Source: a bacterium (lineage in GTDB: Bacteria; Patescibacteriota; Minisyncoccia; Portnoybacterales; JAKAHB01). Taken from it: a stretch of 54,569 nucleotides of DNA. A program made the position numbers and the translations under genes. The stretch spans positions 1 to 54,569 of the forward strand of contig JAKAHB010000001.1 of NCBI GenBank assembly GCA_021815315.1, written 5' to 3'. The notes below the pieces were generated by a model. That model had not been told where the DNA came from and searched no databases. It saw only the letters and a program-made list of their open reading frames with translations. Shown here piece after piece: positions 50,119 through 52,889 of this stretch. Every line of letters begins with the position of its first letter. Within the stretch, counting starts at the first letter, position 1.

Positions 50119-52296
50119 TCAAATCTTGCTTGGCCAATCTTCAATAATCAAGGCTTTTTTTGGTCGGCTAGGCAGTTTTTGGTAGATTTCTTCGGTGATA
50201 AAAGGCATAAAGGGATGTAACAACTTTAGAGAATCATAGAGAACTGTCCACAAAACCAGTTGGGCGGTTTGTTTGTCTTCTTTTGAACTGGGCTCATAAA
50301 TTCTCTTTTTGGCGTCTTCAATGCAGCGGTCGCAAAAACTATGCCAGAAGAAATGATAAATGGCCTGCGCCGCTTCATGAAACTTATATTTTTCAAGATT
50401 TTGCGTTACCTCTTTGGCTGTTTTTTTCAATTCCTCCAAAATCCACTCGTCTTCTTGGGTGTATTTCGGTTTTATTTGGGTTGGGTTGAACTCGTCGGCT
50501 GATGAGTCTTCCAATTGCGACAGGGTAAACCGCGAAGCGTTCCAAATTTTATTAGCGAATTTGCGGTGAGCGATAATCTTGTCTTCGCTTAAAACAATAT
50601 CGCTTTCATTGGAAGATCCAAAAACCAGGCTCATGCGCAGGGCGTCGGCGCCATATCCATCCACCACTGCCAAAGGATTAATCACGTTGCCTTTTGACTT
50701 ACTCATTTTCTGCTTGTCTTTATCGCGCACCAAGCCGTGCATGTAGATATTCTTGAAAGGCACTTGGCCGGTGCGATAGAGGCCCAGCATTAACATCCGA
50801 GCTACCCAGAAAAAGAGAATATCCCAGCCGGTTTCCATGACGCTAGTCGGGTAAAAGGCTTCAAAGTCACCCTCTTTAGTTGTTTGCAAGGTGGCAAAGG
50901 GCCATTGGCCGGAAGAAAACCAGGTGTCAAAAGTATCTTCTTCGGCGACAAATTCAGTGGCGCCGCACTTTTGGCACTTGTCCGGTTTTTTATCGGAAAT
51001 GACATAGCAGGTTTTATCTTGATTGCAATACCAAACGGGGATGCGGATACCCCAGACAATTTGACGGGAGATATTCCAGTCGCGAATATTATTCATCCAG
51101 TGCATAAAAATTCTTTCATACTTGCTGCTGGTGAATTTGGCCTCGCCTTTTTTGACGGCGGCAATCGCCTTCTCCGCCAAGGGAGCGATTTTAACAAACC
51201 ATTGCTTGGAAACCAGGGGTTCAATGGTGCGACCGCATTTGTAGCAAACACCGACCGAATGTTTGTAGGGTTCTTCTTTCTCCAAAAAGCCTTGAGCCTT
51301 TAAGTCAGCGACAATCTTTGTTCTGGCTTCTTCAACTTTCAGTCCGGCATAGTCCCTGCCTGCCTCCTCGGTCATTTTGGCAGTTTTTCCGACAACAGTA
51401 ATAAGAGGCAGATCGTGCCTTTGGCTAATTTCAAAATCGGATTGGTCGTGCGCCGGTGTGACTTTAACGGCGCCAGTGCCGAACTCCATCTCCACGACTT
51501 CGTCGGCCACAATCGGGATTTCTCGATTGGTCAAGGGTAACCTAACCGTGGCGCCGATTAAGTCTTGGTACCTTTTGTCTTTGGGGTTAACCGCAACCGC
51601 TGTATCCCCCAACATGGTTTCTGGCCTCGTTGTGGCCACAACGATAGATTTGGGATTGGGGGCGTGCCTGCCCTCCGATGCGGCGGGAGACTTGAGGTCA
51701 TATCTTATATACCAGAGCTTGTCTTCGCGGTCTTCGTATTTTACTTCCAGCTCCGAAAAACCAGTTTGATGCTTGGGGCACCAATTGATAACCCGTTCAC
51801 CGCGATAGATTAGGCTGTCTTTGTGCATCTGCTCAAAAGTTCCATAGACTATTTTTATAATGTCTGGGTCCAGAGTAAATTTAGCGCGCGACCAGTCGCA
51901 AGACGCTCCCAGGCGTTTGAGTTGGTCCTTGGCCACATCTTTGTTCTCTTGGACGTAGTCCCAGATCATTTTAAAGAGAGTCTCTCGATCAAAGTCAAAA
52001 CGGCTTTTACCTTGCTTTTCTAGCTTTTTTTCAAAAACAACTTGAGTTTCAAAGCCGGCGTGGTCCGCTCCGGGCAGCCAGAGAGCTTTCAGCCCTTTCA
52101 TTCGGTGGTAGCGAATGAGGGCGTCTTCAATCGTGACAAAAACAGCGTGCCCGGCATGTAGGGCCTCATTGGCGTTGGGAGGAGGCATAACGATGCAATA
52201 GGGTTCCCCCGTCCCTTGCGGTTCAAAAAAACCACCCTCTTCCCAGAGCTGGTAAATTTTTTGCTCAATTTCTTGGGAACTGTAAGCCTTGTTCAT
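50119..52296 (-). CDS. valS: Valyl-tRNA synthetase (short C-terminus)
   Basis: PPPNANEALHAGHAVFVTIEDALIRYHRMKG, KMSKSKGNVINP; ATG at 52296 (MNKAYSSQEIEQKIYQLWEEGGFF) preferred; the upstream part of the listed ORF is a palindromic non-coding element. Confidence 0.95.
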   Translation of the reverse strand: MNKAYSSQEIEQKIYQLWEEGGFFEPQGTGEPYCIVMPPPNANEALHAGHAVFVTIEDALIRYHRMKGLKALWLPGADHAGFETQVVFEKKLEKQGKSRFDFDRETLFKMIWDYVQENKDVAKDQLKRLGASCDWSRAKFTLDPDIIKIVYGTFEQMHKDSLIYRGERVINWCPKHQTGFSELEVKYEDREDKLWYIRYDLKSPAASEGRHAPNPKSIVVATTRPETMLGDTAVAVNPKDKRYQDLIGATVRLPLTNREIPIVADEVVEMEFGTGAVKVTPAHDQSDFEISQRHDLPLITVVGKTAKMTEEAGRDYAGLKVEEARTKIVADLKAQGFLEKEEPYKHSVGVCYKCGRTIEPLVSKQWFVKIAPLAEKAIAAVKKGEAKFTSSKYERIFMHWMNNIRDWNISRQIVWGIRIPVWYCNQDKTCYVISDKKPDKCQKCGATEFVAEEDTFDTWFSSGQWPFATLQTTKEGDFEAFYPTSVMETGWDILFFWVARMLMLGLYRTGQVPFKNIYMHGLVRDKDKQKMSKSKGNVINPLAVVDGYGADALRMSLVFGSSNESDIVLSEDKIIAHRKFANKIWNASRFTLSQLEDSSADEFNPTQIKPKYTQEDEWILEELKKTAKEVTQNLEKYKFHEAAQAIYHFFWHSFCDRCIEDAKKRIYEPSSKEDKQTAQLVLWTVLYDSLKLLHPFMPFITEEIYQKLPSRPKKALIIEDWPSKI

Positions 52297-52300
52297 AGCT

Positions 52301-52484
52301 GTTACTTTCTTGTAACCAAGAAAGTAACCAAAGAAGTTCCGCTCAAGCGATAAAAATCCAAGCCAATCAAGTCTCGCTCCGCTGAAAAATTGCCTCCCGA
52401 GCTCGTCGCTTCGCTCCTCTATCGGCAATTGTTTCTACGGCTCCGCTCGGCTGATTGGCTGATAGATTTTTTCGCAATGAGCGG
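52301..52484. repeat. Nested palindromic element directly upstream of valS
   Basis: Hairpin 52301-52328 (12-bp perfect stem); outer arms 52339-52358/52465-52484; middle arms AGCCAATCA/TGATTGGCT (52361-52369/52452-52460); inner arms AATTGCC/GGCAATT (52388-52394/52424-52430). Confidence 0.8.
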
Positions 52485-52562
52485 GAGTTGTCAACTGTTC
52501 GATTAATTCGCCTCTTAACTTGACTGCTAATTGGTTGCTGAAGCGTTTATAGTATGCTCATT

Positions 52563-52889
52563 CTAGCCGCTTTCTTTGCTTAAGGCAACCAATTTATCAA
52601 AATCATCGTCTTTTTGCGCCTTATTTCGTTTTAGCGCGCCGCATTTTTGGCATTGCTGGACAATTATATATTCCTTGCTTTCGGCCTCAACGTTAACGGG
52701 CTTCATTAGTCCGCCGCAAGCATGGGCCCGATCACCCGGATTGATGTCCACATGACGCGACCATAAACAATTCGGGCAATGATTGGTGTAGCCATCACCA
52801 GAAACGGAAGCGCCGCAATGTTGGCAGACAAAATTTTCAATTCTTCTTTGAAACTTTTTGGGCATAACGATAGAGCTTATCAATTTCAC
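52563..52889 (-). CDS. RNHCP-domain zinc-binding protein, copy 2
   Basis: FVCQHCGASVSGDGYTNHCPNCLWSRHVDINPGDRAHACGGLMKPVNV...VQQCQKCGALKRNK. Confidence 0.9.
   Translation of the reverse strand: MKLISSIVMPKKFQRRIENFVCQHCGASVSGDGYTNHCPNCLWSRHVDINPGDRAHACGGLMKPVNVEAESKEYIIVQQCQKCGALKRNKAQKDDDFDKLVALSKESG

Follow-up and report, generated by a model that had tools for sequence, protein, structure and literature searches.

Directly upstream of valS, within a 54,569-nt window from a patescibacterium of the order Portnoybacterales (contig JAKAHB010000001.1, positions 1 to 54,569), lies a palindromic element of ~185 bp (52301-52484). We consider it probable that this element is a copy of a dispersed repeat, non-coding and non-autonomous, that it was inserted into the spacer between valS and an upstream RNHCP-domain gene, and that the repeat spreads via a single-stranded, replication-linked intermediate. 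In sequence comparisons, the copies are dispersed and sharp-ended, are present or absent at a site within one genus, take a single orientation relative to GC skew, and share a conserved, covarying architecture of the single strand. More tentatively, the repeat may represent a class of non-autonomous mobile elements, found across phyla and not described before, that spreads through single-stranded DNA (ssDNA) at the replication fork. Its triple-helix pseudoknot would then be recognized by an enzyme other than a Y1 transposase (as in IS200 and RAYT) or a reverse transcriptase.

The element and its terminal module

A preliminary description, made from the letters of the window alone, had noted a nested ~185-bp palindrome that can fold as a long stem on either strand, and both observations were borne out. 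We recovered the perfect 12-bp hairpin (52301-52312 / 52317-52328, loop TAAC) together with all nested arms: CCGCTCA (52339-52345/52478-52484), GCGA (52347-52350/52472-52475), AAAAATC (52352-52358/52465-52471), AGCCAATCA (52361-52369/52452-52460) and AATTGCC (52388-52394/52424-52430). RNA folding of 52301-52484 gave -76 to -79 kcal/mol on the two strands, where shuffled sequences averaged -47 and -53 (z = -6.8 and -6.35), and none of 200 shuffles folded equally well; DNA folding gave z = -7.2 and -6.35. The genome of origin holds only two copies, as a chance palindrome might suggest, but these shuffles, the homologous copies and the covariation described below already refute that explanation, and we give it virtually no weight. 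The parts of the element are as follows, where F denotes the minus strand, which is the sense strand of valS, and S its complement.

52301..52484, minus: whole element; fold z = -6.35 on F, sharp-ended homologous copies in sister genomes
52301..52312, minus: 3' arm of stem S2 on F (CAAGAAAGTAAC); perfect inverted repeat, purine tract AAGAAA at 52306-52311
52313..52316, minus: S2 loop on F (GTTA; TAAC on plus); X' = GTT at 52314-52316, complementary to and covarying with X
52317..52328, minus: 5' arm of S2 on F (GTTACTTTCTTG); perfect inverted repeat, 5 of the 12 pairs changed on both sides across Patescibacteria copies
52329..52335, minus: L1, third strand on F (TTCTTTG) of a predicted parallel triplex with AAGAAA; mirror match that tracks purine-tract variants
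52336..52338, minus: X (AAC on F), second pseudoknot helix, 3 bp in the valS copy; covarying among 28 and 14 aligned sequences
52339..52484, minus: long variable hairpin domain; nested inverted repeats, same architecture in sister-genome copies
52399..52419, minus: apical module (GAGGAGCGAAGCGACGAGCTC on F); resembles G006 copies and one of two interchangeable sister-family modules

In a typical copy, the long hairpin is followed on the valS-sense strand by an H-type pseudoknot, which forms the 3' end of F in the order X, L1, S2 5' arm, X' and S2 3' arm. The complement of X is X', which lies in the S2 loop at near-fixed spacing; in the valS copy, X is AAC, L1 is TTCTTT, the purine tract is AAGAAA and X' is GTT. 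The preliminary description had overlooked both the pairing of the 12-bp hairpin loop with 52336-52338 and the mirror relation between 52329-52335 and the pyrimidine arm of the hairpin. Among 28 aligned sequences from several phyla, four of the five X-X' pairs carry two-sided changes and covariation exceeds that of shuffled data (0.182 versus 0.098 ± 0.012; 0/500 shuffles). The same holds for 14 Patescibacteria-type copies (0.385 versus 0.175 ± 0.019; 0/500; 25 two-sided cells). Pairing between a loop and its flank, with compensatory changes, is the hallmark of an H-type pseudoknot, and the aligned copies display it.

L1 mirrors the pyrimidine arm of S2 and thus matches the purine tract in parallel, as required of a pyrimidine-motif third strand. 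Where the purine tract varies (AAGAAA, AGAAAA, AAAAAA, AAAGAA, GAGAAA or GAAAAA), L1 shifts accordingly: 93 of 97 copies match perfectly over 6 nt, with a mean of 5.96/6 and a permuted maximum of 5.65 (0/5000), when scored on F (a both-strand version is diluted by wrong-strand hairpins). We rejected the reading of L1 as a direct repeat, which scores 4.03/6 versus 5.96/6 for the mirror. Among 44 distinct Patescibacteria copies, 22 combine TCTTTT with AGAAAA and 17 combine TTTTTT with AAAAAA, with no swap between these two; the triple and pseudoknot tests were each matched by 0/3000 permutations. All of these permutation counts overstate significance, because permutation assumes independent copies and these are related; the stronger point is how many independent switches there are across different genomes and phyla. 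We predict from these matches that L1 lies in the major groove of S2 as the third strand of a parallel pyrimidine triple helix. G.T wobbles outnumber A.C mismatches in S2 on F by 40 to 3, which points to F as the folded strand, although the search pattern fixes the S2 5' arm and the count is therefore supportive only.

Two variations of the module deserve mention. The S2 loop is apparently inverted in L339, L355, L356 and L141 (GGCGGC for GCCGCC), which breaks the X-X' pairing and suggests template switching or cruciform-linked inversion. Among L309-L368, the linker that joins L1 to S2 is mostly G or GG in copies whose S2 begins with GTTAC or GCTAC, and CC or AC in those whose S2 is GCCGC, a further co-variation of the module.

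Copies in Patescibacteria and beyond

We compared the genome of origin (G000) with other genomes, including G006, G007, G008, G010, G011 and G284. BLAST with the element returned a single copy in its own genome; G006 gave dispersed copies that are 70-84% identical to it, and G007 gave two matches. A covariance model built on the terminal module and used for genome searches revealed a second own copy (L327, G000:C14:88990-89031), in which the pseudoknot module is present and a comparably strong upstream hairpin is absent. The model produced 14-42 matches in each of six sister-family genomes, about twice the copy number because hairpins match on both strands; most genomes of the sister family carry ~1-20 copies. 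It gave a few matches in the distant patescibacterium G284, and the five genomes searched in three further families (f5-f7) yielded none. A strict pattern matched only 2 of 380 Patescibacteria genomes, and the family is therefore patchy. The preliminary description had named the lack of other copies and of compensatory covariation as grounds for abandoning its proposal; instead, we found copies at many loci and compensatory covariation.

Copies in Patescibacteria measure ~165-200 bp, including the ~185-bp valS copy with its 12-bp terminal stem. On F, sister-family copies have sharp ends (5' CGCGCAT..., 3' ...GCGGC-AAA) in unrelated flanks, and they carry two interchangeable apical modules, of which the valS copy has the GAGGAGCGAAGCGA type, as seen in an alignment and in 84% identity to a G006 copy across 66 nt (BLAST). 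In three G006 copies (L022, L026 and L027), another GC-rich palindrome (CCTGCCTGCCGGCAGGCAGG type) lies inside or replaces a stem, forming nested repeats. Between G010 and G011, two members of one genus, a site is occupied in the former (L341) and consists of a 12-nt spacer in the latter. Some insertion positions are common to different genera and are filled by genome-specific subfamilies, pointing to repeated insertion at favored sites or to concerted evolution.

Outside this lineage, the 18-mer AAGAAAGTAACCAAAGAA, derived from the window, has matches in at least 119 genome stretches. Among the matches listed, the hairpin accompanies 127 of 138 occurrences, and the carriers include Beta- and Gammaproteobacteria, Desulfuromonadales, Bacteroidota, Selenomonadales, Oscillospiraceae and one Uhrbacteria genome. 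The core is also found in Ilyobacter (Fusobacteriota), and the terminal module in Proteobacteria, Bacteroidota, Firmicutes and Fusobacteria. Searches of E. coli and of phage records for the core gave no match, and a k-mer search found no conserved long-hairpin sequence across phyla. We rejected the idea of phage or plasmid cargo, given that no phage record matched, that plasmid matches fell only on records typed non-mobilizable and that the hairpin was present in only 17 of 68 viral-contig matches. In Caballeronia, two inverted units form a ~560-bp palindrome with a predicted energy of -400 kcal/mol at an orthologous site (L264-L276); most species have the palindrome, two lack it, and one has undergone an internal deletion that left only the two ends, TGGTCTATTAGC...GCTAATAGACCA. 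Elsewhere, matches to the Rfam small RNA family RF02421 (Bp1_684) lie beside and partly overlap a repeat copy (L033, 6713-6820), so this predicted small RNA may be repeat sequence.

Orientation, mobilization and alternative readings

The placement of copies relative to genes invites the reading that the repeat is a cis-acting RNA module, transcribed with its neighbor, usually in the 3' untranslated region and, at valS and at an apparent dnaE gene of G006, in the 5' untranslated region, and that in either region it would block exonucleases, end transcription or slow ribosomes. In approximately 31 of 60 sister-family copies, the 3' (S2) end of F lies 4-13 nt from an opposite-strand stop codon, and the gene on the 3' side is opposite to F rather than on the same strand in a ratio of 44:8. 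Compensatory changes that keep the structure, the wobble excess on F and the positions common to different genera also fit such a role. However, the spacing to stop codons is accounted for by the very short intergenic spacers (the empty site has 12 nt), flanking genes have no common function, F, the better-supported folded strand, is mostly antisense to genes, and no U-tract follows the S2 stem, which is A/T-rich, so it does not qualify as an intrinsic terminator (a terminator scan gave a single weak site, inside the long hairpin). Orientation also follows GC skew rather than gene strand: F lies on the negative-GC-skew strand in 17/17 copies of G011 (with 64 kb of contig C3 read as N) and in 16/16 copies of G006, so that all 33 follow the skew, including 5/5 in which the 3'-side gene is discordant. 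Together, we regard a cis-acting RNA as unlikely.

Since orientation follows GC skew, it follows replication. Judged in this way, orientation tracks replication and not gene strand, like that of elements that enter ssDNA at the fork. At valS, the long-range skew agrees (+0.053 on the plus strand over 20-90 kb), and in G284 the rule is broken in one of two copies. We propose that a trans-acting enzyme would recognize the pseudoknot/triplex end on ssDNA at the replication fork, which would explain the replication-linked orientation. The main alternative for the orientation bias is orientation-dependent loss of palindromes. A further reading is that the repeat is a selected chromosomal structural site, acting in replication, recombination or nucleoid organization, as proposed for BoxC-type repeats, with its orientation set by replication-linked selection or palindrome loss instead of insertion. 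The 33/33 agreement with skew, the internal palindrome deletion in Caballeronia and the inverted S2 loops of L339, L355 and L356, which suggest template switching, are in line with such a site, but within-genus presence/absence and the very patchy distribution fit an essential site poorly, and we hold this reading to be quite unlikely.

Several observations weigh against our preferred reading of a mobile repeat spread through a single-stranded intermediate. No mobilizer was found by searches that covered the Y1_Tnp and RVT_1 families and by clustering of neighboring open reading frames (ORFs). Y1_Tnp is absent from the element-rich G006, G007 and G008 (one is present in G000), and RVT_1 is absent from the carriers G004, G008 and G284; on these grounds, we rejected mobilization by RAYT/IS200 and by retro-elements, respectively. 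ORF clustering across the 119 genome stretches revealed no common transposase; most clusters were specific to Caballeronia or were spurious, GC-rich ones. No target-site duplication was seen at the G010/G011 empty site, local GC skew at the valS copy is approximately zero, and positions shared between genera are also expected under a cis function. The orientation bias could reflect survival instead of insertion, and a lagging-strand template would expose S, but the G.T wobbles and the pyrimidine triplex favor F.

The occupied and empty orthologous sites (L341 of G010 versus G011, and those in Caballeronia) are those of a mobile element. The preliminary description had suggested a dispersed repeat resembling repetitive extragenic palindromes (REPs) or miniature inverted-repeat transposable elements (MITEs). 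That suggestion is right in kind, with copies at many unrelated loci in sister genomes, but on testable defining features the repeat fits neither the REPs nor the classical MITEs. The ends are sharp, but the target-site duplication of a MITE was not seen at the one empty site, the Y1 transposase expected of a REP/REPIN-RAYT system is missing from G006, G007 and G008, and a reverse transcriptase is not present in every carrier, as a retro-element would require.

Gene context and related repeats

The element is flanked by two genes on the minus strand:

50119..52296, minus: valS; Pfam tRNA-synt_1 and Anticodon_1, start 4 nt past the element
52563..52889, minus: upstream RNHCP-domain gene (PF12647); 78 nt between gene end and element

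The order on this strand is a dksA/TraR-like ORF (Pfam score slightly under the curated cut-off), an acyltransferase gene, the RNHCP gene, the element, valS and two downstream ORFs, putatively pheS and pheT from their sequence. Because the 12-bp stem ends 4 nt from the valS start codon (ATG, 52296), the element probably now forms the 5' leader of valS. A valS leader RNA had been offered as an explanation in the preliminary description, and a valS-specific leader, T-box-like or autoregulatory, draws on this proximity, but such a hairpin precedes valS matches in 0 of 22 other genomes of the order (the match in one, L195, is weak and may not be a true valS), other copies adjoin unrelated genes, and none of 4227 Rfam models, including the T-box, matches the element. 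We therefore rejected this candidate as highly improbable. A conserved valS element is thus refuted, and a local effect on valS is possible. Under the mobile-repeat reading, the F-sense placement at valS would be set by the direction of replication, and any effect on valS translation would be a side effect of the element. A promoter-like TTGACA-17-AAAAAT, a consensus match only, lies at the outer edge of the element (52466-52494, minus) and could drive valS. In G006, a copy lies ~10 nt ahead of the apparent dnaE start codon (G006:C4:37267, L019), with F in the sense direction, as at valS.

The closest described kind is the BoxC/PIT intrastrand-triplex repeats, with REPINs also near. BoxC repeats are G/C-rich, of the purine motif (class II) and 34-37 nt long, with the consensus (TMECO) CCCTCNCCC-N3-6-GGGNGAGGG-N3-GGGNGAGGG, and BoxC/PIT repeats have been linked to genome instability (Holder et al., 2015; PMC4666352). 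Like them (PMC4666352), the valS-type repeat is dispersed, combines on one strand two arms, one of pyrimidines and one of purines, with a mirror third tract, occurs at times in inverted pairs and has no known mobilizer or function. The valS copy contains the three matching tracts of at least 6 nt on one strand that characterize a PIT element (TTCTTT / TTTCTT / AAGAAA; predicted triplex), but 52301-52338 is A/T-rich and departs from the BoxC consensus. The valS-type repeat further differs in its class IV order on F (Hoogsteen - Y - R) and in its additional parts: a long hairpin domain, 5 bp that extend the stem, and a pseudoknot helix that covaries. The triplex-repeat database of PMC4666352 would probably list individual copies, and the Haemophilus PIT elements cited there might include relatives of the repeat.

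REPs and REPINs with RAYT share the intergenic, palindromic nature and occasional inverted pairing, whereas the present repeat is larger, ends in a pseudoknot/triplex and occurs in three element-rich genomes without Y1_Tnp. The terminal hairpins and replication-linked orientation shared with IS200/IS605-derived miniature elements suggest ssDNA transfer, but G006, G007 and G008 lack a Y1 transposase and a relation to IS ends is not established. Telomerase-RNA and SAM-II pseudoknots contain triple helices and are single-copy functional RNAs. The repeat resembles them in its H-type pseudoknot, U-rich loop 1, predicted U.A-U and C+.G-C triples and use of the deep groove of stem 2, but it is a dispersed repeat. 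Integron attC sites act as folded single strands, with conserved end boxes around a central palindrome of variable sequence. The repeat likewise conserves its end boxes and keeps the structure of a central palindrome while the sequence varies, but we noticed neither a cassette array nor attC core boxes, without a systematic search. Literature searches by repeat sequence returned unrelated matches only, and the family appears to be unnamed.

The family extends from the ultra-small Patescibacteria to at least four further phyla, and the orientation of its copies marks the direction of replication. Natural bacterial triple helices with evolutionary support are rare, and a third strand that changes together with its stem provides genetic evidence for selection of the triplex. 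With its covariation, orientation bias and occupied and empty sites, the family offers a way to test the long-standing question of what role BoxC/PIT-type triplex repeats play.
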